From Candidatus Tayloriibacteriota bacterium (lineage in GTDB: Bacteria; Patescibacteriota; Minisyncoccia; Phycocordibacterales; UBA10002), in contig SIBZ01000004.1 in assembly GCA_009694955.1 (NCBI GenBank), positions 1 through 39,703 on the forward strand: 39,703 bases of DNA. The letters run 5' to 3'. Made by a program: the position numbers and the translations under genes. The notes below the pieces were generated by a model, which saw only the letters and a list, made by a program, of their open reading frames with translations, did not search any database and was not told the DNA's origin. Shown piece after piece: positions 429-33,292 of this stretch (the first letter of the stretch is position 1; every line of letters begins with the position of its first letter).

Positions 429-475
429 CTACTAACTACTTACTACGAGCTACTTTCTACTTACTGATGTTATAC
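429..475. repeat. family E low-complexity repeat (CTACTAACTACTTACTAC units)
   Basis: actaactacttactacgagctactttctacttact at a gene junction; similar sequence at 13078-13110. Confidence 0.55.
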
Positions 476-1146
476 ACCACGTCCTTCCGTTCCACCACCA
501 CACGCCATTTATTGCGCTTCGCGTGGGCATACAGCTTCGCGTTCGGGTTAAAACAAATCGGCTCCGATACCAGCTCAAGGAACGGGATATCACTTTCGGT
601 ATCGCCTACTCCGACCGAGCCCTTGAGGGTAAGGTCCTCTTTCTCAACGGCACGCTTCACGACAAGCGCTTTGTTCAGCATAAAATGCAACTCGGTAATC
701 TCGCCGGTAAAACGGTCGGACGGACCTGTCTCGTACATCATCCCGTAGACCTTATCAAACCCAAGCCGTTTACAGAAATGGTCAAGGACACCCTTCGGTG
801 AATGTGAGACAGCGAGCAGAAAGAACCCTTTCTTCTTATACTCCTTTATCAAGTCACGTGTGAAGCGGTACACTCTATCTTTCTGCTCCGCGACGACTTC
901 TTCAGCGATGCGGGAGAATTCTTTGTACTCCACGCCTTTAATATTCGCCATAAAGACCTTCACAACCGCCATAATGTAGGCGTCGTAGTCACCTTTCCGG
1001 TCCAGCCACGCGAGCTTCTGGCGTGCGAAATCGGCGTTTGCGTTCTTGCTGAAAATCCCCTCTTCAATCATCCGGTCCACAATCTGGATAAGGAGCGAGG
1101 AACGGAAGATAGTTCCATCTATGTCGAAGATTGCTACCTTTTTCAT
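457..1146 (-). CDS. HAD-superfamily phosphatase (SerB/HAD-IB-like)
   Basis: DIDGTIF motif I, SHSP motif II-like, GVGDTESDIPFL motif IV. Confidence 0.85.
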   Translation of the reverse strand: MKKVAIFDIDGTIFRSSLLIQIVDRMIEEGIFSKNANADFARQKLAWLDRKGDYDAYIMAVVKVFMANIKGVEYKEFSRIAEEVVAEQKDRVYRFTRDLIKEYKKKGFFLLAVSHSPKGVLDHFCKRLGFDKVYGMMYETGPSDRFTGEITELHFMLNKALVVKRAVEKEDLTLKGSVGVGDTESDIPFLELVSEPICFNPNAKLYAHAKRNKWRVVVERKDVVYNISK

Positions 1147-4183: not shown

Positions 4184-4256
4184 TAATCAATCACCAATAT
4201 CCAACGAAAGAACGTTTCTTTTTGGTTATTGGTGTTTGGTTATTGGTGATTAGTTA
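4184..4256. repeat. family B palindromic element (ACCAATA arms / TATTGGT arms, central hairpin)
   Basis: TAATCAATCACCAATATCCAA CG AAAGAA CGT TTCTTT TTGGTTATTGGTGTTTGGTTATTGGTGATTA. Confidence 0.75.
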
Positions 4257-4792
4257 GCCTTAAACGTCGCCTCCTCTCCCGCGACAATGACATCTTCGCG
4301 ATAATTGAATGCGGCGGCCCCGACATCCTTGTACACAACAACTTTGTATGTACTGCCCGCGACAGTCGGGCGAAGAAGTTCAATGGTTGTCTTCTGTGCG
4401 TTGCCGACAAACACCTTCTGAGCGCCGAGAATGTTACCAAGCACACCGCCTTTTACCTCACGCACCGCTACCCACAGGATGTCTTTTGCATCGATGCTCG
4501 CGATTTCCACGCGACCGCCAGCAGGTTGGTCGGTGACACTAAGCCCCTTGGTGGTCACTGCCCCCGTCGCAGGGGTTTCGGATGCTTCTTTCTTTTCCGT
4601 CGGCGCGACAACCCCCTCTTTCTCTTTGATAACTTCTCCTACCGCTGCTTCTTCTTTGGACGTTGAAATATTCTTTACCACATCTCCCGTCCGGCGCGCT
4701 TGCCAGAAGACGCCCGTCGCGAACCCGACAAGGAGTCCGATAATGAGAGCGGTGATAATCTTTCCCGATGCGTTACTTTGAGTGGGTTCCAT
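4250..4792 (-). CDS. membrane-anchored hypothetical protein with a C-terminal beta-rich domain
   Basis: TM segment IITALIIGLLVGFATGVFW, charged linker, C-terminal domain VEIASIDAKDILWVAV... Confidence 0.65.
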   Translation of the reverse strand: MEPTQSNASGKIITALIIGLLVGFATGVFWQARRTGDVVKNISTSKEEAAVGEVIKEKEGVVAPTEKKEASETPATGAVTTKGLSVTDQPAGGRVEIASIDAKDILWVAVREVKGGVLGNILGAQKVFVGNAQKTTIELLRPTVAGSTYKVVVYKDVGAAAFNYREDVIVAGEEATFKAN

Positions 4793-4908: not shown

Positions 4909-5652
4909 ATGAACATACTGCGAACACGATTTAAAAAAGACATTGTGTGCGAATTTATTCCTCCCAATCGACCTTCAAACAAGGTGATTATTTTCTGTAA
5001 AGGAATGCCTGGGCTTCCTCGGTTCCCCCAGGTGTTGGAATTCTGGGCGAAAAAAGGCTACTGGGTATTTTTCCCCCGTTATCGTGGCACATGGGAAAGC
5101 GACGGCGAGTTTCTGAAGGAATCTCCCGAAAAGGACATTCTTGATGTCATCGACGAACTCCCAAAAGGATTTACCGACCTCTGGTCCGGTCGGTCCTATA
5201 AGCTATCAGCTAAAAGCTATAAGCTATTCATATTCGGCGGCAGTTTCGGCGGGCCGGCAGCAATACTCTGTTCCCGAGATCCACGTGTGACGAAAGCGGT
5301 CGCCTTCGCGCCAGTTATAGATTGGGAAGCGCCATCCGAGGAAGAACCGATGGATAAACTTGGTGCATTTATTCCGCAAGGGTTTGGACAGAGCTACCGG
5401 TTCTCACAGAAAAATTGGGACCGACTCAGCCACAACGAGTTTTACAGTCCGCTCAAAGAGTCCGATACGATTGATGGCAAAAAACTTCTCATCTTCCACG
5501 CTAAGGATGACGAATCGTGCCACTATCCCTCGACCAAAACATTCGCCGAAAAAACCGGCGCGAAACTCATCACGCTTCGCACCGGTGGCCACTTTGGCAT
5601 CTCAAAATCCATCGAACCGAGATTCTATAAAGAAATCAAGAAATTCCTCTAG
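4909..5652 (+). CDS. alpha/beta hydrolase
   Basis: GGSFGG nucleophile elbow, late GGHFG histidine motif. Confidence 0.75.
   Translation: MNILRTRFKKDIVCEFIPPNRPSNKVIIFCKGMPGLPRFPQVLEFWAKKGYWVFFPRYRGTWESDGEFLKESPEKDILDVIDELPKGFTDLWSGRSYKLSAKSYKLFIFGGSFGGPAAILCSRDPRVTKAVAFAPVIDWEAPSEEEPMDKLGAFIPQGFGQSYRFSQKNWDRLSHNEFYSPLKESDTIDGKKLLIFHAKDDESCHYPSTKTFAEKTGAKLITLRTGGHFGISKSIEPRFYKEIKKFL
5197..5227 (+). repeat. family A repeat (AGCTATAAGCTAAAAGCT), in frame inside the hydrolase
   Basis: tataagctatcagctaaaagctataagctat encodes YKLSAKSYKL. Confidence 0.75.
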
Positions 5653-5659
5653 TAGTAAT

Positions 5660-5697
5660 TTTAGCAAAGTAACCACGGCCGTGGTTACTTTGCTAAA
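5660..5697. terminator. 38-nt perfect palindrome between convergent genes (possible bidirectional terminator)
   Basis: TTTAGCAAAGTAACCACGG|CCGTGGTTACTTTGCTAAA, overlapping the truB stop codon. Confidence 0.6.
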
Positions 5698-6409
5698 TTA
5701 CTTCTGCATCTTCGATTTTGAATTCTCCTATTCGAGTACGGCGAAGCCCCGCGAGCGTGGCGGGAACTCCAAGACGCCTTCCGAACTCTTCGGCGAGGGA
5801 GCGGATGTAGGTCCCGCTTGTGACGTCGAAGCGGACAGACACCACCACCCCGCCTCCGGCACCCCTCCTCAACTGAGGAGGGGGTGAAGAGACACCGAGA
5901 AACTCCACCGCGGTTATCTCCATCACCTTACTTGGAGTATCTACCACTTCACCGCGCCGTGCTTTTTTATACAGTGCTTCCCCTCCCCGTTTGATAGCGG
6001 AATACGCCGGAACCGGAAGCTCAAGCTTTCCTATCATTGTCTGCAGTATCTTTTCTATTTCTTCGTTTGAAAATTTCTTATCTTGAAAATTAATTGAAAA
6101 TTGGGAATTGGAAATTGGTACTTCTTGGCCAGTGATATCTCCCGTATCCGTTTTTACTCCGAGTAGTATTTCCGCCTCATATGTTTTATCGAGCTTCAAA
6201 AACTCGTGAAGTTTTTTGGTTCCGTCACCAACTCCGATAATCATAAGCCCCGTCGCCATCGGGTCCAGCGTCCCCGCATGCCCCATCTTGCGTATATTCA
6301 GCTTCTTCCTCAGTATGCGAATACAGTCAAAGGAAGTAATTCCCTTCGGCTTATCAATGAGTAGAATATGTTCGGGAAGCACAGTAGGAGTATGGTACAC
6401 TTTTAACAT
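5693..6409 (-). CDS. truB: tRNA pseudouridine(55) synthase
   Basis: LLIDKPKGITSFDCIRILRKKL, GHAGTLDPMATGLMIIGVG, PAYSAIKRGGEALYKKAR motifs; start placed at MLKVYHTP. Confidence 0.95.
   Translation of the reverse strand: MLKVYHTPTVLPEHILLIDKPKGITSFDCIRILRKKLNIRKMGHAGTLDPMATGLMIIGVGDGTKKLHEFLKLDKTYEAEILLGVKTDTGDITGQEVPISNSQFSINFQDKKFSNEEIEKILQTMIGKLELPVPAYSAIKRGGEALYKKARRGEVVDTPSKVMEITAVEFLGVSSPPPQLRRGAGGGVVVSVRFDVTSGTYIRSLAEEFGRRLGVPATLAGLRRTRIGEFKIEDAEVI
5841..5892 (-). repeat. GC-rich palindromic repeat in frame inside truB
   Basis: CCCCTCCTCA-AC-TGAGGAGGGG palindrome; encodes SSPPPQLRRGAGGGVVV. Confidence 0.7.
6070..6120 (-). repeat. family C repeat in frame inside truB
   Basis: cttgaaaattaattgaaaattgggaattggaaattgg encodes PISNSQFSINFQ. 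Confidence 0.7.
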
Positions 6410-6410
6410 A

Positions 6411-6494
6411 TCATTAATCACCAATAACCAATATCCAATCACCAAGGAAGAAATGATTCTTTTTGGGTATTGATAATTGGTGCTTGGTTATTTT
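6411..6494. repeat. family B palindromic element, second copy
   Basis: TTAATCACCAATAACCAATATCCAATCACCAA GG AAGAA ATGA TTCTT TTTGGGTATTGATAATTGGTGCTTGGTTATT. Confidence 0.75.
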
Positions 6495-10696: not shown

Positions 10697-11272
10697 ATGC
10701 GTAAAATTGTTTTTGACATAGAAACCACCAATTTCTTCACCGACACGGGGTCAAACGACCCCACATCTTTGACGATTGCGTGCGTGTGCACTCACGATTC
10801 TGAAACTGACGCATACGCGAGTTATTACGAAGGCGACCTCCCGAAGCTCTGGCCAATTCTGGAAAGGGCAGATTTGCTTATCGGTTACAACTCGGACCAT
10901 TTTGATATCCCGCTTCTCAATAAATACTATCCCGGGAATCTTACCGGCATTAAGAGCCTTGATTTGATGAAGGAAATCCAGAAGGTGCTCGGCAGACGCA
11001 TTAAACTGGACAGCGTCGCCGAAGCGACGCTCGGCAAGAACAAGAGCGCTGACGGTAAAATGGCGAATGTTTGGTGGCGCCAAGGAGAGAAGCAGAAGGT
11101 GGTGGACTACTGTATTGATGACGTCCGTATCACCAAAGAACTCTATGAGTATATGCTGAAGCACGGCAAAGTAAAATATCCGGACGGCAAGATGATACGC
11201 GAGCTTCTTCTGGACACTTCGGCGTGGAATACCAAAAACGAAACCGTGCTCACCCACACATTACCGTTTTAG
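10697..11272 (+). CDS. predicted 3'-5' exonuclease, RNase H-like fold
   Basis: IVFDIETTNFF, LIGYNSDHFDIPLLNKYY, YCIDDVRITKELYEYM (DEDD-like acidic motifs). Confidence 0.8.
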   Translation: MRKIVFDIETTNFFTDTGSNDPTSLTIACVCTHDSETDAYASYYEGDLPKLWPILERADLLIGYNSDHFDIPLLNKYYPGNLTGIKSLDLMKEIQKVLGRRIKLDSVAEATLGKNKSADGKMANVWWRQGEKQKVVDYCIDDVRITKELYEYMLKHGKVKYPDGKMIRELLLDTSAWNTKNETVLTHTLPF

Positions 11273-11275
11273 ACA

Positions 11276-11350
11276 GTTGTAAGTTGTAAGATTAAAGATT
11301 ACAGTAAGTGTGCCGCTTTACTTACATCTTAAATCATACATCTTTAATCT
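11276..11350. repeat. family D palindromic AT-rich element (TTGTAAGATTAAAGAT arms)
   Basis: gttgtaagttgtaagattaaagattacagtaag ... cttacatcttaaatcatacatctttaatct; AGATTAAAGAT versus ATCTTTAATCT. Confidence 0.65.
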
Positions 11351-13077: not shown

Positions 13078-13110
13078 CCTACTAACTACTATCTACCTAC
13101 TACTAACTTC
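13078..13110. repeat. family E repeat, second copy
   Basis: cctactaactactatctacctactactaac. Confidence 0.5.
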
Positions 13111-16034
13111 TTTAGTCGGCACCATTCGCACTCCGGCTCATCGCAAAAGTCGGTCATCACACGACCGGACCAAACTGAATCAATGAGCGATTGAATTTCT
13201 GTTTTGAGTTTCTCGATATCCGCATCCGCAACCGGAAGAGAGACGATACCGCACTTCCCTTTCCTATCTGGCATCACGAATACAAGCGAAGGAACAATGT
13301 CTTTATTTTTGTATTTCGGATTGTGCTCCAAGAGGAATTTGTAGAAAATAAGCTGGCGCCAAGGGTTTCCGTCGGATGATTTGGTCTCTCCTTTAATCGC
13401 CGGAACCGTCATTGCTTCTTTGGTCTTGTAGTCGAACACGCGGACGGTGTCGCCGTCTTCAAGAACCGCGTCAAGTTTGCCGTGAACGGGCATAGTCACT
13501 TGGCCACCTTCGTACGTCCCAGAAAAGTGTCCCTCGCTCCAGCTTTCTGTAACCGCCTTCCCCGATGCGAAATGGCTTTGGAGTTCCTGAGCGATACTCG
13601 GCGCCTTTTCAAACAGTTCTGTCTTGACCGCTTCCTTTTCAAATACCGGAAGCAGTGAGCGCTCCAGGTATGCGGAAACTGAGTCCCGAAAGACCTTTTC
13701 AATAGTGCCTATACTCCGGTCGGTTTCTTCCCATATCCGTCTGAACGCTTCGTGTACCGCCGTTCCTTTCTCCGCGCTTGGCGTCGACGCTTGAGGAATC
13801 TTCAGGATACTTTGATAGAGAAACGCGCTCGGGCACGTTATGAAGTGGTTAAGCGCCGTAACGGAAAGTCCTGAATTGAGGAGCGTGGTTTTCGTGAGGT
13901 CAATAAGTTTTCGGTTGTGAGTAGAAATCCCTCCCGTCTCAGAAGATGTACTTCCTTTAAAAAAAGGAGAATGAAGACCTCCAACATCTGGAGGCAAAAC
14001 AGTCCTTTCCACACACTTCGGGTCAAGCTCATCAAGAAAACGGAGTGGCGTTTCTGTCTTTCCACCCGCAATTTCCTCCGGCACCAATACCACAGCGTGC
14101 TTCTTTGCGCGGGTGAGCGCGACATAAAACAAACGACGTGCGTCACGGATAGAATCTTCATCATCCTTTTCTTTATGCGGAAAGACGAAATACGTACCAC
14201 GTGTTCTGCCTATCCACGAACTCTCCGTTACAAACGGCAAAAAGACGTAATCAAACTCAAGTCCCTTGCTCCCATGCGCAGTCATTGCCCTGACCCGGAG
14301 TTCGGGAGAGCCGACACTTACCTTCACGCTCCGCTCCTCCGAAGAGGCTTTATAGGATAGGAGCTTCGCAAGAAGTTCTCGTGTATCGCGGATATCTCCT
14401 TCCCGTATCAGATATTCCGAGAGTTCGACAATACCGCGCCAGACTTCCATCGCGGACGGGTCTTTGACGGCGAGCGTAAGAAAGCCCGACGCTTCCGCCA
14501 AGAAGACTAGATACGCAAGCGCTCCTTCGTCGGTAAGTTTGTTCTGAAGATGCCTGAGTGCGGGGATTTTCTCCGCCACGCCTTGTTTCCCGCTCCGAAG
14601 CGCACGAATGCACTCTACACCGTTTTCAAACGGCACATCCCAGAGCCCCACCGCAATCGTCTTCGCAAGTGCCTCCGTATTGGTGGTATCCGACAGATAT
14701 TCAATCAGCGTAAAAAACAGATTACCGATGGGGTGATTAAAGATATTTATTTTCCGTTCGGAGGAAACGGGAATTTCTTTTGATTCCAAAAAACGGATAA
14801 TCCGTTCTAAATCGCGATTGGTCTTTGTAATAATCGCCATGGTGCTTTCGTTCTCTTTTTCAAGAATTGCCTGTATTTCTTTTCCTAAATACTCAAGCGT
14901 ATCGCACTCTTTCCCTGATATGAGCGCTAGCGGTTGTGGCTTTCCCCCGCCCCCTGAGGTAAGCCGGACCCGAAGATGTGTATGTTCACCTTCGCCGTAA
15001 TTGTTTTCAATCATACTGAAGGTGCTGTCGAGGAGGTGCTGATGCGAGCGGTAGTTCGTTTCAAGCGGAATACTCTTCATTCCTTTCCACGCGTTTTTGA
15101 ACCGAAGGAAGTTTTCCACGGACGCCCCCTGAAAACGGTAAATCGCCTGCTTTTCGTCGCCAACTACGAAGAGATTCGGCGAATCAAAAAAGTCGGCGAG
15201 CAAACGGATAAGCAGGTTTTGCGAATCGTTGGTATCCTGATGTTCATCGACGAGTATATAGAGAAACTTCTCCTGAAGCAGACGGAGAAGCAATGTGTCG
15301 TTCTGGAGCGCGGTGAGGAGTTCGATAATCAAGTCGTTAAAATCAATTTTCCGTTCGGCGCGTTTTCGCTTTTCATACACCTCATACACGTCGGCGAAAA
15401 GCACCGTGCGTTCGCATTTCTCTATCCGCTTCTCGGCCTCGGCTTTGAGTTTGCCTTTGGTTGGCCCGCGCGAGGAAAGAGCGTCGGGGTCGGCCTGTAT
15501 GCTCTTCTTCTCTTTCTTCGCCCCTTCACGCATCATTTCCGGCGTCAACGCTTCGCGCTTCGCGTCGCTTATGCCTCCGACTATTTTCTGTACGTAAAAA
15601 TCGGGATTACCGAATGGCCGGAGCTCCGCGAACCGTTCATCTTTCAGAATCTCACGGACGAGACTTTCTGCGTCTATGTCGGTCATCTGTATCGCCCTAT
15701 CCAGATGCGCGAAATGGTCTTTGAACTCAGCAATGATTGAGGAGGCGAAACCGTGAAAGGTGTGCAGACGCACTTCGTCAGCGCGCGAACCCATAAGGGC
15801 ACGTAGTTTCTGGCGCATCGCCTTCACTCCCGCTTCGGTAAAGGTAATCGCCAAAATCCCCGACGGTGGTGTGTCGGTCTTCCGGAGGATTTGCGCGATG
15901 CGAAGCGTAAGTACGGTCGTCTTCCCCGTCCCCGGCCCGGCGATGACCATGACGGGTCCGTCGATAGTATCGACAGCCTCCTTTTGCTTCGGATTGAGTC
16001 TGGCGTATTGTGCTTGAAATGCGCTGTCGGACAT
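13089..16034 (-). CDS. UvrD/PcrA-like superfamily 1 helicase with C-terminal PD-(D/E)XK (RecB-like) nuclease
   Basis: LNPKQKEAVDTIDGPVMVIAGPGTGKTTVL Walker A, VDEHQDTN, GDEKQAIYRFQGA, LFYVALTRAKK; C-terminal GKLDAVLEDGDTVRVFDYKTKE and CEWCR. Confidence 0.95.
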   Translation of the reverse strand: MSDSAFQAQYARLNPKQKEAVDTIDGPVMVIAGPGTGKTTVLTLRIAQILRKTDTPPSGILAITFTEAGVKAMRQKLRALMGSRADEVRLHTFHGFASSIIAEFKDHFAHLDRAIQMTDIDAESLVREILKDERFAELRPFGNPDFYVQKIVGGISDAKREALTPEMMREGAKKEKKSIQADPDALSSRGPTKGKLKAEAEKRIEKCERTVLFADVYEVYEKRKRAERKIDFNDLIIELLTALQNDTLLLRLLQEKFLYILVDEHQDTNDSQNLLIRLLADFFDSPNLFVVGDEKQAIYRFQGASVENFLRFKNAWKGMKSIPLETNYRSHQHLLDSTFSMIENNYGEGEHTHLRVRLTSGGGGKPQPLALISGKECDTLEYLGKEIQAILEKENESTMAIITKTNRDLERIIRFLESKEIPVSSERKINIFNHPIGNLFFTLIEYLSDTTNTEALAKTIAVGLWDVPFENGVECIRALRSGKQGVAEKIPALRHLQNKLTDEGALAYLVFLAEASGFLTLAVKDPSAMEVWRGIVELSEYLIREGDIRDTRELLAKLLSYKASSEERSVKVSVGSPELRVRAMTAHGSKGLEFDYVFLPFVTESSWIGRTRGTYFVFPHKEKDDEDSIRDARRLFYVALTRAKKHAVVLVPEEIAGGKTETPLRFLDELDPKCVERTVLPPDVGGLHSPFFKGSTSSETGGISTHNRKLIDLTKTTLLNSGLSVTALNHFITCPSAFLYQSILKIPQASTPSAEKGTAVHEAFRRIWEETDRSIGTIEKVFRDSVSAYLERSLLPVFEKEAVKTELFEKAPSIAQELQSHFASGKAVTESWSEGHFSGTYEGGQVTMPVHGKLDAVLEDGDTVRVFDYKTKEAMTVPAIKGETKSSDGNPWRQLIFYKFLLEHNPKYKNKDIVPSLVFVMPDRKGKCGIVSLPVADADIEKLKTEIQSLIDSVWSGRVMTDFCDEPECEWCRLKKLVVGR
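13929..13996 (-). repeat. family F-like repeat in frame inside the UvrD-like gene
   Basis: CCTCCAGATGTTGGAGG...CTCCTTTTTTTAAAGGAAG... encodes LPPDVGGLHSPFFKGSTSSETGGIS. Confidence 0.65.
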
Positions 16035-16055: not shown

Positions 16056-16085
16056 AGCTTATAGCTGTTAGCTGATAGCTCTTAG
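16056..16085. repeat. family A repeat, intergenic
   Basis: agcttatagctgttagctgatagctctt. Confidence 0.65.
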
Positions 16086-17635: not shown

Positions 17636-17654
17636 ATTTATCAGGCTCTTTCTG

Positions 17655-17757
17655 AATTCTCCCTTTCCTAAAGGGAGCACTCCGTCTTCGGAGGAGGGAT
17701 TTAAATCCTCCGTCCTCGAAAACTCGGACACCTCCTTTAGGAAAGGAGGAATAAGAT
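17655..17757. repeat. family F palindromic repeat cluster upstream of prs
   Basis: CTCCCTTTCCTAAAGGGAG, CTCCGTCTTCGGAG, CCTCCGTCCTCGAAAACTCGGACACCTCCTTTAGGAAAGGAGG. Confidence 0.7.
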
Positions 17758-17779
17758 ACTGACACCTACTTCTCTTTCC

Positions 17780-17803
17780 TAAAAGCTAGAAGCTATAAGC
17801 TTC
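17780..17803. repeat. family A repeat, intergenic
   Basis: taaaagctagaagctataagctt. Confidence 0.65.
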
Positions 17804-17805
17804 CC

Positions 17806-19017
17806 CTAATATCCTTGGAGTTTTTTCGCTTTCTCGTGCTGGCGGATTTTCTCGTGCGCCTTGGCCTCAATCTGGCGGATGCGTTCACGGGTCACGCCGA
17901 ACTTCTGGCCGACTTCTTCGAGCGTGTGGGTAATGCCATCGAGAAGACCGTGACGGAGCTCCAAAATTTTTCGTTCTTTTTCGGACAGGTCGCCGAGGAT
18001 TTCTTTCACTTGGTCGCCGAGGATTCGGCGGGACGATTCCTGGTCGGGAGAAAGGATTTTGTCGTCGTGGAGAAAATCTCCGAGTGTCGACTTGCCGTCG
18101 TCTCCTTCGTCGCCCACAGGGGACTCGAGCGACACGGTGTCTTGGTCAATTTTTTCGATTTGGTATACCTTATCCGTTTCGATACCCATTTCAACACCGA
18201 TTTCTTCGGGAAGCGGGTCACGTCCGAGGTCCTGCGAGAGACGGCGTACTACCTGCTTGTACTTCGCAATCGTTTCCACCATATGCACCGGCACCCGAAT
18301 CGTGCGTGACTGGTCGGCGAGCGCGCGGGTAATCGCCTGGCGAATCCACCAGGTCGCGTAAGTTGAAAACTTATATCCTTTGGTCCAGTCGAACTTATCG
18401 ACCGCCTTGAAAAGACCCAGGTTCCCTTCCTGAATGAGGTCGAGAAGCGTGAGGTCGGGCGAGCGTCCGACGTATTTTTTGGCAATCGAGACGACGAGAC
18501 GCAAGTTCGCGCGGGCAAGCAGGTTTTTCGCTTCCGTGTCGCCTGCCTGAATGCGCTTCGCGAGTTCCTTTTCGTCCTTGGCGTTGATGAGCGGGTACTG
18601 TCCGATTTCCTTCAAATACATCTGAATCGAATCATAAGATGATTCGCTACTCTTCCCCAGATAGACATTTTTCTTGCCGTGTGGCTCTTCCACCTCCTTT
18701 TCGAGCATGCCTCCTCCCTCGAGCACATCGATGCCCGCAGTCTGGAATTTTGCGTACAGCTCATCGAGGAACATAATGTCCTCCTCGATGGTGGGAAACT
18801 CTTTCAGAATATCGTTGTAGGTGATAAACCCACGGTCCTTGCCTTTGGCGACAAGCCTGTCCGTCCGTATGTCGCGTTCTTTCCCACGGGAAAGTTTTAC
18901 CGGCTGTTCCTTCGGCGAGACTTTCTTTTTCGTCTGAGGCTTCTTTGAGACCTTTGGCGCAACCTTTTTCTTCTTTTTCTTGTCTTTCGCGCGAGGCTTT
19001 TTTGACTTTTTGGCCAT
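17806..19017 (-). CDS. rpoD: primary RNA polymerase sigma factor
   Basis: [77 protein letters not shown]; region 4 [19 protein letters not shown]. Confidence 0.97.
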
Positions 19018-23035: not shown

Positions 23036-26000
23036 TTATTCAGCCGGCTCTTCGAATGCGGGTTCCGGATAGAGCTCCGCTTGCATCTTCGCAATCATCG
23101 CGGCTTTCGGGCCTCCCTTGTAACCGGTGCCGGCGGGGATAAGACGTCCGATAATGACATTTTCCATAAGGCCTTGGAGACTGTCTTTGCTTCCACGTAC
23201 CGCAGAGTTGATGAGGACCCGAGTCGTGTGTTGGAAGGATGCAGCGGAAAGGAAACTTCGGCGCGAGAGCGACACTTCGGAAATACCCATAACGAGTGAC
23301 TCTGCTTTTGCTTCTTCTTCCCCCCGTTCTTTGGCACCTTCGTTTTCGCGTGAGAGTGTCAACGGGTCAACAACATCTCCTATCGAGAGCGCCGTGCCTC
23401 CCGCGTCCTTCACCTTCCGGCGGAAGAACATCTGGCGGACAATCGTTTCAATATGCTTGCGGGCAACCGTTTCTCCCTGGAGGTCGTAGGGTTTGGTGAC
23501 TTCACTGATGATGTATTCTTGCGCGCGTTCGCGTCCGCCGTACTTGAAGAGTTCGTCGATATCGGCCGCACCGTCGGTGAGGAGGTCGCCCTTCTTCACC
23601 GCGTCGCCAACCTTCACAAGCGGAATGCGGTTGTAGCTCGTGACGTACTCCGATTCGCTCTTCTTTTTCGTTTTGCTCTTATCGGCGATATCCGGAAGAA
23701 CCGTAATAATTTTTTCTTTGCCGAGGTCTTTGATTTCGGTAATGATGCCATCAACACGGCAGACGACCGCTGGGTTCTTCGGCGCGCGCTTCTCGAAGAG
23801 TTCTTCGACGCGCGGGAGACCTTGCGTAATGTCTCCGCCGAGTGTCGACACACCTCCAGTATGGAAGGTACGCATCGTAAGCTGTGTTCCCGGTTCGCCG
23901 ATGGCCTGCGCAGCAACGGTGCCGACCGCTTCGCCAAGTCCGACTATTTCGTGTTTACCGAGATCGAGTCCGTAACACTTCTGACAGATACCGGAAACGC
24001 TCTTGCACGAAAGCGGTGAACGTACCCATACCTCCTCTACTCCGGCTTCCTGCACTTTGAGCGCATCAAGCTTGGTAAGAAGGTCACCCTTCTTGAAAAG
24101 TACCGTACCCTCCGATGTAACGATATCGGCGGAAAGGAACCGTCCCTTGATATTCTTTGAGAGAATGGCGTCAATACCGGATGCGGAATTGCGAGAAATC
24201 TTAATACCTTCTTTCACACCGCAATCTACTTCACTCACCATTACGTCTTGCGCCACCACGAAAAGCTTACGGGTAAGGTAACCGGCTTTCGCGGTGTTAA
24301 GCGCGGTGTCGGTAAGACCTTTACGCGAACCGTGCGTGGTAATGAAGTATTCAATTGGCGTGAGACCTTCCTTCATACAGGAGAGAATCGGGAACTCAAT
24401 GGTTTCTCCGGCGGTGTTCTGGATAAGACCTTTCATACCGGCCATTTGCGTTATTTGCGAGAACGAACCGCGGGCACCGGAATACACCATATCGAAAACC
24501 GAGCCGTTTTTGTCGAGCGAGGCGGGGATGAGTTTCTCAACCTGTGCCTTGGCCGCGTGCCAGATTTCGATATTCTTCCGGAGACGTTCCTCTTCGGACA
24601 AGAGGCCGTCACGCCATTCCTGATACGCAACTTCGGATTTTTCTTTCGCCTTCTCAATCACGTCCGCTTTACCCTCCGGCACTTTCACGTCGTCGATACC
24701 CCACGTGATGCCCGAGTAGGTCGCGTATTTGAATCCGAACGCCTTGATGCGGTCCATAATGGACGGGATTTCCGAGATACCGTAGCGGTTGATGAGGTCG
24801 TCAACGAGCGAGGACATGCTCTTTCGTTCCATTTCCTTGTTGATAAACGCGTAATCGTTCGGGAGTACACTGTTGAAAAGGAGGCGCCCCACGGTCGTTT
24901 CAAACACTTTGCCTTCATACGCTTTGTATTTTTCCTGCTCGGTGGCGAGTACTTTAATCTTCGCGCGAAAATCAACCACATCGAAGTCCCACGCGGTAAT
25001 CGCGCTGTTGGGACGGGCGAACATCTTGCCTTCTCCTTTCGCGCCGGGAAGCACCTTGGTCATCCACCAGCACCCGAGCACAATGTCGAGCATTTTTCCG
25101 GATACAATAGGGTCGCCGGAGCCGGGCTTCAAGATGTTCTTGTGGGCGGCCATAATCTCCCTCGCTTCAAGCTGTGCTTCTTCAGAGAGTGGCACGTGTA
25201 CGGCCATCTGGTCACCGTCGAAGTCCGCGTTAAAGGCGGTACATACGAGCGGGTGCACTTGGATGGCGTTACCTTCAATCAGAACCGGCTGGAAGGCCTG
25301 AATACCGAGGCGGTGCAGAGTCGGCGCGCGGTTCAGGAGCACGTATTTGTTTTTGATAACTTCTTCGAGAATCGCCCAGACTTCCGGCACACCTTCTTCA
25401 ATGAGGCGTCCGGCTCCTCGAATGTTGAACGCGAGTTCGCGTTGTAACAGTTTGGAAATGACGAACGGTCGGAAGAGTTCGAGCGCCATATGTTTCGGCA
25501 AACCGCACTGGTGGAGTTTGAGTTCGGGACCAACCACGATAACAGAGCGTCCCGAATAGTCGACACGCTTACCGAGGAGGTTCTGGCGAAAGAGACCACG
25601 CTTGCCTTTCAGGTTATCCGAGAGCGACTTGAGCGGTCTTCGCTGTGAAGCGGTGAGCGCTCCCGCGGCGCCGGCGCCGTGACGGATGGAGTTGTCGATG
25701 AGGCTGTCAACGGCTTCCTGCAAAATGCGCTTTTCGTTACGCAAGATGACATCCGGCGCGTTGATTTCCTTAAGCTTTCGAAGACGGTTGTTGCGGTTGA
25801 TAACCCGGCGGTAGAGGTCGTTCACATCTGAGGTGGCGTAGCGCCCTCCGTCGAGCGGTACCATCGGGCGGAGCGCCGGAGGAATAACGGGAACTCGCGT
25901 GAGAAACATCCATTCGGGTCGGATATTCGCGGAAATCATTGAACGGATAAGGCTTAGCCTTTTGTTCAAACGGTCGCGTTCCACCGAGCTTGCCTTCTCT

Positions 26001-26722
26001 AGCTCTCCTTCAAGCGTCTTCTGGAGCACGTTCAAATCGAGCACCACGAGGAGGTCGTAAATCGCCTCCGCACCGACACCCGCTTCAAAGAGCGTGCCGT
26101 ATTTGAGCGAGAACGAATGAAATTGCACTTCATCAAGAACCGCCCCTTCGACAACGCCCTCTATTTCGCGCTTGGCCATAAGGTAGCGCTCTTTCAAAGC
26201 ATCGCGGTCTTTCTCCGTCGTAAGAGCCTTTACTTTGGTGCGGTATTCGTTCTCGAGGTCGCGCAGGAGTCTCGAGCGCTCTTCGGGCGCGACTTTCGTG
26301 ATGAGATATCCCGCGAAATAAATGACTTTTTCGAGCTCGGCCGAGGACATACCGAGAAGGAGTCCGAGGCGGGAGGGCATACTCCTGAGGAACCAGATAT
26401 GGGAAACCGGCGACGAGAGTTCGATATGTCCCATTCGCTCACGGCGGACAATCGAGCGCGTCAGTTCTACGCCACATTTCTCACAGACAATACCTTTATA
26501 GCGGACACCGCGGTATTTCCCGCAATAACATTCATAGTCGCGGTCGGGACCGAAGATGCGCTCGTCGAAGAGGCCGTTCTTTTCACTGCGCTGTGTTCGG
26601 TAGTTGATGGTTTCCGGCTTGGTGACTTCACCGAACGACCACTCCTTGATGTCGTCGGGCGACGCAAGTTTGAGGAAGACCGAGTCGAAGTCGTTGATGT
26701 TTGAGATGGTTTTGCTTTTCAT
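23036..26722 (-). CDS. rpoC: DNA-directed RNA polymerase subunit beta'
   Basis: YECYCGKYRGVRYKGIVCEKCGVE zinc motif; NADFDGDQMAVHVPLS catalytic loop. Confidence 0.99.
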   Translation of the reverse strand: MKSKTISNINDFDSVFLKLASPDDIKEWSFGEVTKPETINYRTQRSEKNGLFDERIFGPDRDYECYCGKYRGVRYKGIVCEKCGVELTRSIVRRERMGHIELSSPVSHIWFLRSMPSRLGLLLGMSSAELEKVIYFAGYLITKVAPEERSRLLRDLENEYRTKVKALTTEKDRDALKERYLMAKREIEGVVEGAVLDEVQFHSFSLKYGTLFEAGVGAEAIYDLLVVLDLNVLQKTLEGELEKASSVERDRLNKRLSLIRSMISANIRPEWMFLTRVPVIPPALRPMVPLDGGRYATSDVNDLYRRVINRNNRLRKLKEINAPDVILRNEKRILQEAVDSLIDNSIRHGAGAAGALTASQRRPLKSLSDNLKGKRGLFRQNLLGKRVDYSGRSVIVVGPELKLHQCGLPKHMALELFRPFVISKLLQRELAFNIRGAGRLIEEGVPEVWAILEEVIKNKYVLLNRAPTLHRLGIQAFQPVLIEGNAIQVHPLVCTAFNADFDGDQMAVHVPLSEEAQLEAREIMAAHKNILKPGSGDPIVSGKMLDIVLGCWWMTKVLPGAKGEGKMFARPNSAITAWDFDVVDFRAKIKVLATEQEKYKAYEGKVFETTVGRLLFNSVLPNDYAFINKEMERKSMSSLVDDLINRYGISEIPSIMDRIKAFGFKYATYSGITWGIDDVKVPEGKADVIEKAKEKSEVAYQEWRDGLLSEEERLRKNIEIWHAAKAQVEKLIPASLDKNGSVFDMVYSGARGSFSQITQMAGMKGLIQNTAGETIEFPILSCMKEGLTPIEYFITTHGSRKGLTDTALNTAKAGYLTRKLFVVAQDVMVSEVDCGVKEGIKISRNSASGIDAILSKNIKGRFLSADIVTSEGTVLFKKGDLLTKLDALKVQEAGVEEVWVRSPLSCKSVSGICQKCYGLDLGKHEIVGLGEAVGTVAAQAIGEPGTQLTMRTFHTGGVSTLGGDITQGLPRVEELFEKRAPKNPAVVCRVDGIITEIKDLGKEKIITVLPDIADKSKTKKKSESEYVTSYNRIPLVKVGDAVKKGDLLTDGAADIDELFKYGGRERAQEYIISEVTKPYDLQGETVARKHIETIVRQMFFRRKVKDAGGTALSIGDVVDPLTLSRENEGAKERGEEEAKAESLVMGISEVSLSRRSFLSAASFQHTTRVLINSAVRGSKDSLQGLMENVIIGRLIPAGTGYKGGPKAAMIAKMQAELYPEPAFEEPAE

Positions 26723-26724
26723 AA

Positions 26725-26814
26725 TGAGTTGAAAGATTTAAGTTGTAAGATTTAAGGAGGACACCTCTTTTCTTAATTCTTTACGTTAATCTTGAATCTT
26801 TAATCTTAAATCTA
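26725..26814. repeat. family D palindromic AT-rich element between rpoB and rpoC
   Basis: gttgaaagatttaagttgtaagatttaAGGAGG-ACA-CCTCTtttcttaattctttacgttaatcttgaatctttaatcttaaatct. Confidence 0.7.
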
Positions 26815-29800
26815 ACGAGCTCGTTCCCGTCTTCGCTCATAGGTGGTCGACCGCTTTGCCGGCATCTCAATTCCCGTTTCTCCTTCTTTCTTCAGTTCAA
26901 CATCAAGCGCAAGTCCTCGCAGAGTGTTCAAAAGTACACTGAACGAAGCCGGCGCGTTCATCGCTCCGATACGCTCACCTTTCACGATGGCGTCGAATGC
27001 CGCAGAGCGCCCCAGAATATCGTCGGACTTAATCGTAAGCATTTCGCGGAGCGTATATGCCGCGCCATGACCGAGAAGCGCCCAGACTTCCATTTCACCG
27101 AAACGCTGACCTCCACCTTGCGCTTTCCCTCCGAGCGGTTGCTGGGTGATAAGCGAGTACGGACCGATGGAGCGCATATGAATTTTGTCTTCCACCATAT
27201 GGTGAAGCTTCATAATGTACATATACCCTACGGAGATATCCTGGTTGAAGCCATCGCCGGTCCGGCCGTCGTACAGTTTCATCTTGCCTGTCGGTGCGAT
27301 ACCTGCCTTCACGAGTTCTTCCTTGATTTCAACATCCGTCGCTCCCGCGAATGGGGGCACGATTGCCTGATAGCCGAGCGTGTTCGCGGCAAGGCCGAGG
27401 TGTAATTCCAAAATCTGTCCGAGGTTCATACGGGAAGGTACACCGAGCGGAGTGAGAATCATATCCACCGGACGGCCATCGGCCATATACGGCATATCTT
27501 CTTCGGGAAGCACCTTGGAGATGACACCCTTGTTTCCGTGGCGTCCGGCGAGTTTGTCGCCGACCGAAGCGGCGCGCAATTCCGCGACTTCGATATGAAT
27601 GCGCTTAATGATGCCCGATTCGAGCTTGTCGCCCTTCTCGCGCGAAAATACTTTCACGCCGATAATGCGCCCACGCTTTCCGTTTTCCATACGCTTCGAT
27701 GTGTCTTTGACGTCGCGCGCTTTCTCACCAAAGAGAGAACGCAGGAGTCTTTCTTCCGGCGTAAGCTGTGTTTCGCCTTTCGGAGTGATTTTACCGACAA
27801 GAATATCACCCGGGCGTACTTCCGCACCAATGCGCACAACACCGTCTTCATCGAGGTTCTTAAGTTTGCTTTCGCCGACGTTCGGGATGTCGTGAGTCGT
27901 GATTTCGGGACCGAGCTTGGTGTCGCGGACGTTTACCACAAACTCTTCAATGTGCACGCTTGTGAACCGGCTGTCCTTGACGAGGCGTTCCGAAATAATG
28001 ATGGCATCTTCGTAGTTGGAACCTGACCACGACATAAAGGCAATCAGGATGTTCTGGCCAAGCGCCATCTGTCCGCGGTCGCTCGATGAGGTATCGGAAA
28101 GCACGTCTCCGCGGGAGACGTTTTGGTTGAGCGACACAATCGGGCGCTGGTGGAATGAGGTAAAGCCGTTGGTCCGCGAGAAATTAACGAGGGGGTATTC
28201 CTTCTCCTTTCCTTTCGCGTTTTTGAGAACAATTCGGCGCGCGTCGACGTGACTGATGATGCCGTCTTCGTCAGCAATGATAAGACGTCCCGTATCGCGG
28301 GCCGCCATCTCCTCGATGCCGGTCGCGACAAGCGGAGCTTCGGGGATAAGGCACGGAGTCGCTTGTTTCTGCATGTTCGAACCCATAAGCGCGCGGTTCG
28401 CGTCGTCGTGGTTCAAGAACGGAATCATAGACGTAGCGACGGAAAAGGCCTGATTGGTCGCGACGTCGATGTAGTCAATTTCTTCCCGCTTCACAAGCTC
28501 CGGCTTTCCGTTCAGACGAACCTCGGCTTCAGCGGCAAGAATGGTTCCGTCAGCGCCGTACTTCGTGGCGGCATGGGCGATTTTAAAGTTTTCTTCCTCG
28601 AGCGCGTTGAGATACTGCACCTCCTTGGTGATTTTTCCGTCCTTTACTTTCGCGTAAGGCGTTTCAATCATTCCGAAACTGTTGAGACGGGCGTAGGTTG
28701 AGAGGCGGAGGATGAGTCCGATGTTCGGACCTTCGGGCGTATGAATGGGACAAAGTCGTCCGTAGTGGGACGGATGCACGTCGCGGACTTCGAAGCCTGC
28801 GCGTTCACGCGTCAGTCCTCCGGGACCGAGCGCCGAAAGCGTGCGTAAATGTTCGAGCTCGGAGAGAATGTTCTCCTGTTGCATAAACTGCGAGAGTTGG
28901 TTCGTGGTGAAGAATTCCTTGATGCGCGCTTGGAGAGGTTTTGGCGAAATGAAGTTGACAGGGAGCGTCACGTCGGACTCGACGGTCGACATACGGTCTT
29001 GCACGTTGCGCTTGATTTGCGCCATACCGACACGGATTTTCTGCTGGAAAAGTTCGCCGACAAAGCGCACTCTGCGTGAACCGAGGTGGTCGATGTCGTC
29101 CTCCATCGCGTCGGCGGTGTTGTCGAGCGTGATGACATTGGTGACAATCGTGACAAGGTCGTTGAGCGAGATGACCCGGCGGTCCATTTCTTTCTCATCC
29201 ATCGATTTGCCGAACCGCTTATTAAAGCGGAACCGCCCCACTTTCGAAAGGTCGTACCGTTCCGTCTCGAAGATGGAGTTGATGAACTCTTTCGCGTTCT
29301 CGACGCTTCCGATTTCCCCGTCGCGCAGGCGCTTGTGGATTTCCATATAGGCCTCGTCGGTTGTCTTCGCGTGGTCTTTGGCGAAAGACGCCTTAAGATG
29401 GGGTTCGGCGGCGGGAGTCGTGGCAAAAAGGCTGAAAATCTGCTTTTCATCCTTGGCTCCGAGAATGCGCAGGAGTGAGGTAACGGCAAACTTGCGCTTG
29501 CGGTCGATGCGGACATAGAGTGCACCATCCACATCGGTTTCAATTTCAATCCACGCGCCGCGTGCGGGAATAATCTTTGCACCGAAGTATTTCCTGCCCT
29601 TGATTTCCTCTGCCGTGAAAAAGACACCGAATGAACGGGCGAGCTGAGGCACAATAACACGCTCAATACCGGAAATGATGAACGTACCGTGCTGTGTCTG
29701 AAGCGGAAAATCCGCCATAAAAATCTCCTGCTCTTTCACTGAACCGACAATTTTATTCTTAAGACGCACCGTGACTTTGAGCGGAGCTTCATAGGAGAGC

Positions 29801-30060
29801 TTGTTTTGCTTCGCGTAAAACTCGTCGAACTTCGGCTCCTGCAGTTTGAAACCGGTGAAATCCAGTTCAAACTTTTTGCCGGAGTAATCCTTAATTGAAG
29901 AGAATTCGGAAAACACTTCTTTGAGCCCCGTTTCAATGAGCCATTTGAATGACTCTACTTGAGGTTCAACGAGGTTCGGGAGCGTCGTGAGCGGGGCCTT
30001 ATAAGCGCCGAAGTGCTTCTGGGGCCGTGCCTGGGCGCTTGACGTGTATTCTCTGCTCAT
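26812..30060 (-). CDS. rpoB: DNA-directed RNA polymerase subunit beta
   Basis: RPLSQF-like NQLSQFMQQENILSELEHLRTLSALGPGGLTRERAGFEVRDVHPSHYGRLCPIHTPEGPNIGLI; C-terminal GGKAQGGGQRFGEMEVWALLGHGAAYTLREML. Confidence 0.99.
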   Translation of the reverse strand: MSREYTSSAQARPQKHFGAYKAPLTTLPNLVEPQVESFKWLIETGLKEVFSEFSSIKDYSGKKFELDFTGFKLQEPKFDEFYAKQNKLSYEAPLKVTVRLKNKIVGSVKEQEIFMADFPLQTQHGTFIISGIERVIVPQLARSFGVFFTAEEIKGRKYFGAKIIPARGAWIEIETDVDGALYVRIDRKRKFAVTSLLRILGAKDEKQIFSLFATTPAAEPHLKASFAKDHAKTTDEAYMEIHKRLRDGEIGSVENAKEFINSIFETERYDLSKVGRFRFNKRFGKSMDEKEMDRRVISLNDLVTIVTNVITLDNTADAMEDDIDHLGSRRVRFVGELFQQKIRVGMAQIKRNVQDRMSTVESDVTLPVNFISPKPLQARIKEFFTTNQLSQFMQQENILSELEHLRTLSALGPGGLTRERAGFEVRDVHPSHYGRLCPIHTPEGPNIGLILRLSTYARLNSFGMIETPYAKVKDGKITKEVQYLNALEEENFKIAHAATKYGADGTILAAEAEVRLNGKPELVKREEIDYIDVATNQAFSVATSMIPFLNHDDANRALMGSNMQKQATPCLIPEAPLVATGIEEMAARDTGRLIIADEDGIISHVDARRIVLKNAKGKEKEYPLVNFSRTNGFTSFHQRPIVSLNQNVSRGDVLSDTSSSDRGQMALGQNILIAFMSWSGSNYEDAIIISERLVKDSRFTSVHIEEFVVNVRDTKLGPEITTHDIPNVGESKLKNLDEDGVVRIGAEVRPGDILVGKITPKGETQLTPEERLLRSLFGEKARDVKDTSKRMENGKRGRIIGVKVFSREKGDKLESGIIKRIHIEVAELRAASVGDKLAGRHGNKGVISKVLPEEDMPYMADGRPVDMILTPLGVPSRMNLGQILELHLGLAANTLGYQAIVPPFAGATDVEIKEELVKAGIAPTGKMKLYDGRTGDGFNQDISVGYMYIMKLHHMVEDKIHMRSIGPYSLITQQPLGGKAQGGGQRFGEMEVWALLGHGAAYTLREMLTIKSDDILGRSAAFDAIVKGERIGAMNAPASFSVLLNTLRGLALDVELKKEGETGIEMPAKRSTTYERRRERAR

Positions 30061-32173: not shown

Positions 32174-32896
32174 TTATTTTCTGCGCTTCAGTTTCCACTC
32201 GTTGATTTTTGCCTGATGACCGGAGAGAAGGATTTTAGGGACGCGGAATTTCTTGCCTTTGTAGGAAAAGATTTCAGGGCGGGTGTAGACATCGGGGCTG
32301 GCAACACGACTTTCCTCGCGCGAGTTGAAATCGCCAAGCACGCCTTCCACTTGGCGCGCGATTACGTCAATCATCAGCATTGCGGGGAGTTCCCCGCCGG
32401 TGAGTACGAACGGACCCACGGATACCTCCTCAACCTTGAATGCCTTCTTGACTCGTGCATCTATTCCCTCATACCGCCCGCAGATAATGATGATGTCTTT
32501 CTGTTTCGCGTACTTCACTCCACTTTCGTTGGTGAACTGCTTCCCGCTCGGGCTTAGCCAGACAAGAGGAGCTTTTAGCTTATAGCTTATAGCTTTTAGC
32601 TTTTTCGCCATTCTCACATTTTTAAGAATGTCAGAATATGCTTTTTCGATGGCGCGGATAACTGGTTCGGCTTGGATAACCATGCCGGGACCGCCGCCGT
32701 ACGGAGCGCGGTCAATTCGTTTCCATTTATTTTCCGCAAAATCGCGCGGGTTGTAGAACTTCACCTGTATCTTTTTGTCCTCAATGGCGCGCTTCAAAAT
32801 CGACTCCCCGAGATAGGAGTCAAATGCGTGCGGGAATAAGGTTATGATATGGAAATTCATGTATAGCAAAATACAACAAAATTGTAATAATGGCAA
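32174..32896 (-). CDS. trmD: tRNA (guanine(37)-N1)-methyltransferase
   Basis: HIITLFPHAFDSYLGESILKRA, APYGGGPGMVIQAEPV, IIICGRYEGIDARV, SVGPFVLTGGELPAM, LLSGHQAKI. Confidence 0.96.
   Translation of the reverse strand: MPLLQFCCILLYMNFHIITLFPHAFDSYLGESILKRAIEDKKIQVKFYNPRDFAENKWKRIDRAPYGGGPGMVIQAEPVIRAIEKAYSDILKNVRMAKKLKAISYKLKAPLVWLSPSGKQFTNESGVKYAKQKDIIIICGRYEGIDARVKKAFKVEEVSVGPFVLTGGELPAMLMIDVIARQVEGVLGDFNSREESRVASPDVYTRPEIFSYKGKKFRVPKILLSGHQAKINEWKLKRRK
32569..32604 (-). repeat. family A repeat in frame inside trmD
   Basis: gcttttagcttatagcttatagcttttagc encodes KLKAISYKLKAP. Confidence 0.75.
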
Positions 32897-32940
32897 TACA
32901 ACACAAAACCGCCTTTCGGCGGTTTTGTGTTAGTCTTTTC

Positions 32941-32977
32941 TGAAAGCTAAAAGCTAAAAGCTAGAACCTAAAAGCTA
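32941..32977. repeat. family A repeat at the 3' end of the KH gene
   Basis: tgaaagctaaaagctaaaagctagaacctaaaagcta; provides the stop codon. Confidence 0.65.
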
Positions 32978-33292
32978 TATCTTGAGGTCTTCCATCGCCT
33001 CGTCCACGCTCTTCGTGGTTGAGCGTTCCGGGCGGGTTCCCCCTTCCGGCTCGTTGATTTTGAGATTTACGCGCGCATTGTTCTTCATACCGACGACTCG
33101 GAGGAGCGTGCGGATTGCCTTTGCAGTGTTGCCTGAGCGACCGATAACTTTACCCATATCAACCGGGCTAATCGAGAGTGTCAGAAGCACGCCCATTTCG
33201 TCGACGGTTCGGTTGATTTTGACATCATCCGGAGCGTCTACAAGCGCCTTCACTACGTATTCGAGAAACGCGACATCGCTTTCTTGTGCCAT
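32975..33292 (-). CDS. KH-domain RNA-binding protein (KhpA/YlqC-like)
   Basis: GKVIGRSGNTAKAIRTLLRVVG KH motif; between rpsP and trmD. Confidence 0.9.
   Translation of the reverse strand: MAQESDVAFLEYVVKALVDAPDDVKINRTVDEMGVLLTLSISPVDMGKVIGRSGNTAKAIRTLLRVVGMKNNARVNLKINEPEGGTRPERSTTKSVDEAMEDLKI

Follow-up and report, generated by a model that had tools for sequence, protein, structure and literature searches.

The occurrence of a short repeat in frame within conserved enzymes of a reduced genome leads us to ask what kind of element it represents and how it came to occupy these sites. The window, that is, the whole stretch of 39,703 nucleotides analysed here from a Candidatus Tayloriibacteriota genome (G000), had been described preliminarily as carrying five copies of a fixed 18-bp unit, "family A", two of them in frame within conserved genes. 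All five sites were recovered, with coordinates off by at most 1-2 bases, and the motif is not a product of chance: AGCTAWAAGCT occurs 10 times in the window versus 0.02 expected from dinucleotide shuffles, and the 18-mer with up to three mismatches 11 times versus 0.01. At the scale of the 869-kb genome, exact AGCTAWAAGCT is counted 35 times versus 2 for the reversed control, which disposes of the possibility that it is no more frequent than expected. Among the relatives scanned, AGCTAWAAGCTAWAAGCT is frequent in G002, G004, G008, G009, and G012 as well as in G087, a member of another family, and is scarce or missing in the rest of the order. The fixed 18-bp unit, for its part, proved too narrow and can be ruled out: the true unit is neither an 11-mer nor an 18-mer but 7 bp (AGCTAAA or AGCTATA), and AGCTAWA is one word among many.

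Indeed, the five copies, all of them real, do not make up the whole family but are a subset of about 15 period-7 arrays in the window, for which Tandem Repeats Finder also reported the units CTACTTA, TTGGTGA, AATTGGA, CTACTAA, AATCTTA, and more. As had been claimed, two AGCTAWA arrays lie in frame within genes. The first, of 4.6 units (5196-5227, plus strand), belongs to an alpha/beta-hydrolase gene (4909-5652) and encodes YKLSAKSYKL before the GGSFGG strand, and the second, of 5 units (32569-32604, minus strand), belongs to trmD (32174-32896, minus strand) and encodes KLKAISYKLKA. A third in-frame array, made of another word, AATTGGA (6092-6123, minus strand), encodes ISNSQFSINF within truB (5693-6445, minus strand). 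Read directly from the sequence, AGC TAW yields a stop when the second codon is TAA, so that an open frame needs AGC TAT; the idea that the unit keeps its frame open is thus correct for both in-frame AGCTAWA copies but only for the sense orientation with AGC TAT. The remaining AGCTAWA arrays lie 22 bp upstream of the start codon of a helicase gene (array 16056-16085, minus strand; gene 13089-16034, minus strand), immediately 3' of a sigma factor gene (array 17779-17803, plus strand; gene 17806-19017, minus strand), and at the 3' end of a KH-domain gene, whose TAG stop is included (array 32940-32977, plus strand; gene 32975-33292, minus strand). The first two of these are degenerate, with one perfect AGCTAWAAGCT apiece; they were considered as borders of a cassette, as the 1.7 kb between them is absent from G008, and this was rejected, the intergenic sequence being too diverged to define a boundary. 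Within this interval we noted a dispersed element of about 100 bp (17654-17757) with inverted ends ATTCTCCCTTTCCTAAAGG / CCTTTAGGAAAGGAGGAAT, for which BLAST retrieved matches to many loci in the genus and which overlaps a predicted N-terminal extension of a PRPP synthetase gene.

Other words are found at similar positions. The gene at 457-1146 (minus strand) has its stop codon within a CTACTTA array (429-465, plus strand), and the helicase gene ends, stop codon included, within a CTACTAA array (13079-13111, plus strand); with the KH-domain array, this makes three window arrays that contain the stop codon of a neighbouring gene. The others, to which no strand is assigned, comprise an intergenic TTAATTT-type array conserved in G008 (2756-2789), a TTGGTTA/TTGGTGA array of period 14 at the 3' end of the gene at 4250-4792, minus strand (4219-4256), a CCAATAA array at the 5' end of truB (6410-6445), an inverted array pair just past the gene at 10697-11272 (11275-11350, with arms at 11275-11304 and 11321-11350), an AAGATTT-type array (26727-26756) between rpoC (23036-26722) and rpoB (26812-30060), and an AATCTTA array at the 3' end of rpoB (26786-26813).

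Dozens of such heptad words, mostly AT-rich, occur in this genome, and what unites them is an exclusive period of 7 bp. In samples of 150-290 kb, some of which were picked for array matches and therefore give upper estimates without affecting the contrast between lags, lag-7 self-matches per 100 kb reached 16.7 in G000, 31.9 in G007, 33.0 in G004, 24.2 in G001, 17.3 in G002, 14.6 in G012, and 5.2 in G008; lag 14 shows up as a harmonic of lag 7, and the remaining lags from 4 to 13 mostly stayed below 3 per 100 kb. The density was 47.5 in G087, in regions picked near matches, and no period-7 array was seen in the 60 kb sampled from each of G014 and G015. Loci from many phyla, fetched solely because they hold the AGCTAWA word, contained 146 additional lag-7 arrays versus 3-22 at each of lags 5, 6, 8, 9, and 10. 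The period-7 bias is therefore widespread across phyla, as earlier papers noted, and the AGCTAWA word itself is also present in the cyanobacteria Pleurocapsa, Hyella, and Pseudanabaena.

The arrays share an anatomy as well as a period. Four units is the mode (284 of 531 arrays). Where same-word arrays lie no more than 150 bp apart, the arrangement is inverted 55 times and direct twice, and in the AGCTA, ACGCT, and AGGC families polarity is constant: with a left arm (NNNNTAG)n and a right arm (CTANNNN)n, arrays point away from the middle of the intergenic region. Of 288 arrays, 235 have as their nearer gene the one on the side predicted by polarity (235:53); polarity was assigned from resemblance to the words of inverted pairs, and these pairs are included in the count. 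According to mechanical ORF calls with uncertain starts, 195 of 280 intergenic arrays lie within 20 bp of an ORF end versus 124 under uniform placement, and a stop codon falls inside an array in 72 of 1600 ORFs. The 5' and 3' gene ends are similarly frequent (169:196), and intragenic arrays are sense in 79 cases and antisense in 28. Placement at ORF ends and around stop codons might suggest a selected signal, either a binding array of 7-bp pitch, an all-frame stop, or a gene-end hairpin, whose recognition word drifts between species; the species-specific vocabularies described below and the better conservation of near-identical arrays relative to their flanks would fit as well. We nevertheless consider such a signal unlikely: both gene ends are used about equally, each genome holds many unrelated words, and arrays are found within enzymes. 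Single arrays are direct repeats of about 30 bp, and paired arms are complementary at the level of the word only; since they do not share the order of unit variants (the order is not mirrored, and complement identity is 0.80 versus 0.81 with shuffled order), nothing points to a selected hairpin between inverted arms.

The 55 inverted pairs out of 57 and their fixed polarity may also be viewed as the trace of a MITE- or RPE-like mobile mini-element, in which heptad arms and spacer move together and single arrays are solo arms. Y1_Tnp transposases exist in most genomes, and G087 has TTGAAAA heptads as the arms of longer palindromic repeats, scattered elements some 130 bp in length whose palindromic core, TTTTCAAACACGACGTCGT, is conserved and of which 80 kb hold many copies (L130:50-182, 958-1083, 13691-13845, and 18063-18194; L131:6921-7052). 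Within the genus, however, the spacers of the inverted pairs inspected vary in length and sequence, the same site holds different words in different species, no target-site duplication was seen, and array-poor congeners have Y1_Tnp too, all of which makes the displacement of a whole element an improbable origin of the arrays.

The in-frame copies were examined in the hydrolase (PF00326/PF12146), TrmD (PF01746), and TruB (PF01509). The array is absent from the trmD of G005, G006, and G011; in the cleanest alignment, the G005 gene is exactly 21 nt shorter than that of G000 between conserved flanks, that is, three heptads or seven codons. Solved TrmD proteins, 3KY7 for example, likewise lack the segment, which sits before the strand PLVWLSPSG. 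The proposal that an insertion into a loop could be tolerated is borne out by these insert-less orthologues, and orthologues rule out that the repeat residues are a conserved protein sequence. The search for insert-less versions succeeded for TrmD but not for the hydrolase, where a clean insertion is ruled out: other heptad arrays fill the site in congeners whose gene has the same length, and the short form lacks no more than 6 nt. Judging from the alpha/beta-hydrolase fold, the array would be located in a loop, and no solved structure related to the hydrolase was retrieved at E 0.001. At this site G000 and G004 have a near-identical 31-nt block, and the word is CTAWACG (CTAAACG) in G007, CTACNAA in G008, and CATATTC in G001, with a weak array in G012. 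The trmD site carries AGCTAWA in G000, G012, G010, and partly G008, CTACACG units plus a second array of AACGCAA in G007, CCTAGTG and AAGCTCG in G004, CTTCAAACTAAAAA in G001, and a CCCGCGGGAATGAC-type palindrome in G002. As for the truB site, CAATTYC is found in G000, G008, and G003 and GAATTAN in G001, G012, and G007, and CAAATTC is also among the words of congeners.

Several palindromes were encountered around these genes. Adjoining the trmD array, the loop at 32605-32640 contains a palindrome, imperfect in G000, that stays near-perfect across species while its sequence changes (ATTCCAACATTCTCAAGAATGTTGGAAT in G008, CTCCTACATTCCTAGGAATGTAGGAG in G005, and TTCTAATGTTCTCAAGAACATTAGAA in G010; G006 and G011 were also examined), which looks like compensatory or templated change within a coding region. 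In truB, an in-frame palindrome CCCCTCCTCAACTGAGGAGGGG (5862-5883) encodes SPPPQLRRGAGGG; a related insert, SSPPRLRRGAGGG, lies in the hydrolase of G001 (L070), a longer one occupies the same place in G012 (L066), and CCTCCTCAACTGAGGAGG is present at several further loci of the genus. This palindrome appears to be a second in-frame mini-repeat family, nearer to Rickettsia palindromic elements than the heptads are. At array sites, some congeners hold, in place of heptads, GTCATTCCCGCGGAGGCGGGAATCCAG-type palindromes, which we take to be dRS3-like (L084 / L280, in frame in G002 trmD; L311 in G008). Finally, the G012 bin contains second, diverged copies of trmD and rpoB (52% and 74% identity; L090, L352, G012:C4), probably from a contaminating contig.

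The changes of word at a given site were then considered over the 41 sites that could be matched between species through both of their flanks; equal-length pairs were available at 15 of them. Equal-length orthologous arrays are either near-identical or rewritten, with only three pairs in between. The near-identical class comprises 12 unique pairs with at most 2 substitutions versus 1.2 predicted from flank divergence, and the hydrolase arrays of G000 and G004 keep the order of their variant units. The rewritten class amounts to 32 comparisons with at least 6 substitutions, one of them without any shared aligned base, although these equal-length pairs come from seven sites only and are not independent; trmD is a further rewritten site, of unequal length. 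Rewritten arrays keep a mean lag-7 identity of 0.67 versus 0.35 under simulated random substitutions, and 0.21-0.24 at other lags. Between the sister species G001 and G004, a partner array is present for 28 of 33 arrays, and exact gains and losses of 7-nt units stand beside concerted changes of all units, such as AACTTNA to GAGCTTC; the conversion of CTAWAAG into CTAWACG in every unit of an array is another example. Where array lengths differ, they mostly do so by multiples of three and not by those of 7 or 21, in keeping with selection for frame at coding sites.

Each species has its own heptad dialect. Among pairs of arrays at different loci, words alike at 6 of 7 positions or more account for 16.3% within species versus 8.9% between species; with permuted species labels the sharing was 10.0 ± 0.5% and the observed value was reached in 0 of 2000 trials, a signal that near-identical paralogous regions could somewhat inflate. 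ACGCT words number 32 in G007 and 0-5 elsewhere, AGCTC is restricted to G004 and G001, GTTAAC to G002, and AGGTAG to G007. The word at a rewritten site fits the dialect of its own species better than that of the partner (pairwise p = 0.008, with pairs that are not independent; per-array p = 0.053), which is suggestive only. One may argue that the arrays change independently of one another, through replication slippage and homogenisation of their own units, and that shared words merely reflect common starting sequences or a mutation bias. The exact unit indels and concerted all-unit changes between species speak for it, as does the polymerase-footprint hypothesis for 7-mers cited in PMC4692102; the sharing of words such as GTTAAC or AGGTAG across unrelated loci of one species, the sharp four-unit mode, and the fixed polarity do not, and we hold this explanation to be possible but doubtful.

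Taken as a whole, it seems reasonable to propose, with a probability of about 0.55, that AGCTAWA is one word of genome-wide heptanucleotide arrays that evolve by slippage and template copying at 7-nt steps, together with copying between arrays. Slippage in 7-nt steps would lengthen and shorten arrays; templated synthesis, through misalignment or template switching, would copy units between the repeats of an array; and, occasionally, units would be copied from another array elsewhere in the genome. Copied units would replace the word in place, giving rise to a dialect per species. Copying between loci, to which the dialects point, is the least certain of these steps. The in-frame copies may simply be passengers, retained only where frame and absence of stops permit, and no function would be necessary; in this way TrmD and TruB, core enzymes in a reduced genome, would acquire new peptide loops from the dynamics of the repeats. 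Three observations do not sit easily with slippage and copying: slippage alone predicts a broad distribution of unit numbers and not a peak at four, length differences are not those of whole heptads, and strong homogenisation within arrays should scramble the order of variant units that near-identical arrays keep. It is conceivable, albeit tentatively, that a sequence-independent process holds four-unit arrays at fixed sites and rewrites their words in trans, period, unit number, and polarity being set by the process itself; every species would then possess a drifting dialect at the borders of genes and within protein loops. Rewriting at conserved sites and dialects make copying between loci directly testable across close strains.

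Our search did not reveal an enzyme behind the arrays: none of RVT_1, Y1_Tnp, MutS, and the Y-family polymerase is a clean correlate. A dedicated enzyme, reverse transcriptase or telomerase-like, could in theory write heptads from a drifting template and so produce both a sequence-independent 7-bp period and species-specific words. We find it highly improbable, as RVT_1 is absent from the array-rich G000, G004 (100% complete), and G087 and present in the array-poor G005, G006, and G011. The Y1 transposase was also rejected as the driver: of 19 genomes, 16 encode it, array-poor ones among them, and it was not found in the array-rich G012 (90% complete), so that repeat presence does not track it as in REP/RAYT or IS200/IS605-type systems. 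Of the 99 genomes of the order, only one or two have MutS; its loss may permit arrays but does not explain which genomes carry them. The lack of MutS among the relatives, like their small genome size, is consistent with a patescibacterial affiliation. The Y-family polymerase is encoded by array-rich congeners except G012 and by G087, and is absent from the array-poor clade; the correlation fails, since G014 and G015 encode it, with no array seen in the 60 kb sampled from each, and most of the other genomes with AGCTAWA matches lack it. In the RpoB tree, G005, G006, and G011 group together, apart from the array-rich species, and the within-genus contrast in arrays is therefore close to one event.

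How do these arrays compare with known repeats? The preliminary description had likened them to Rickettsia palindromic elements, which are palindromic, follow a family consensus over some 100-150 bp, and count among the short repeats, scattered through a genome, that housekeeping proteins can accommodate in frame. Copies in frame in protein genes, three of them in the window, and insert-less orthologues such as TrmD are common to both. The analogy goes no further: the arrays are direct heptad repeats of about 30 bp with neither a palindromic unit forming a stable hairpin nor a 100-150-bp consensus, and their word varies by site and species, so that membership of this group is not supported. 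It is approached in part by the inverted arrangement of neighbouring arrays and by the G087 elements with their conserved core. Bacterial heptameric repeats have been noticed since 1990, their mechanism never having been established. The STRR sequences of cyanobacteria, reportedly the subject of work by Mazel et al. in 1990, and our arrays are both dispersed heptanucleotide tandem repeats, and the AGCTAWA word occurs in cyanobacteria. Heptanucleotides of Calothrix are mentioned in PMC4692102, where long simple sequence repeats (Mrazek et al. 2007) are also cited; in the literature searched, we did not find inverted pairs, copies in frame, or turnover of words described for STRR or long simple sequence repeats, nor, subscription literature lying outside the search, any description of word turnover, dialects, or such repeats in Patescibacteria. 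In Beggiatoaceae, TAACTGA direct repeats (arrays of 2-6 copies close to the ends of genes, with all-frame stop codons in one orientation) have a patchy distribution including Cyanobacteria and Bacteroidetes (MacGregor 2015, PMC4679880); they consist of a single word whose related heptamers are rarely repeated, whereas many related words are found here. The closest counterparts are the GGGAATC heptads of Xanthomonas, mostly of four units with variable positions 5 and 7, which form 70-75 closely spaced inverted pairs, each made of a plus and a minus array, lie nearer to one neighbouring ORF (28 nt vs 160), and are intragenic in 7-11% of cases (Rehm et al. 2015, PMC4692102). G-quadruplexes have been discussed for these G-rich heptads, with one word per organism, that of Nostoc being GGGGA(C/T)T (PMC4692102). 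Words like AGCTAWA, AATTGAA, and CATAATT lack G-runs, and quadruplexes therefore cannot be the general cause; the same anatomy being built from dozens of words unable to form them, the explanation should not depend on sequence. The type is thus known, and the arrays studied here share with the Xanthomonas and Nostoc heptads the 7-bp tandem unit with fixed and variable positions, the four-unit mode, the inverted close pairs, the orientation by the nearer ORF, and the intragenic minority; unlike them, they use dozens of mostly AT-rich words, form species dialects, and are rewritten in place at conserved sites.
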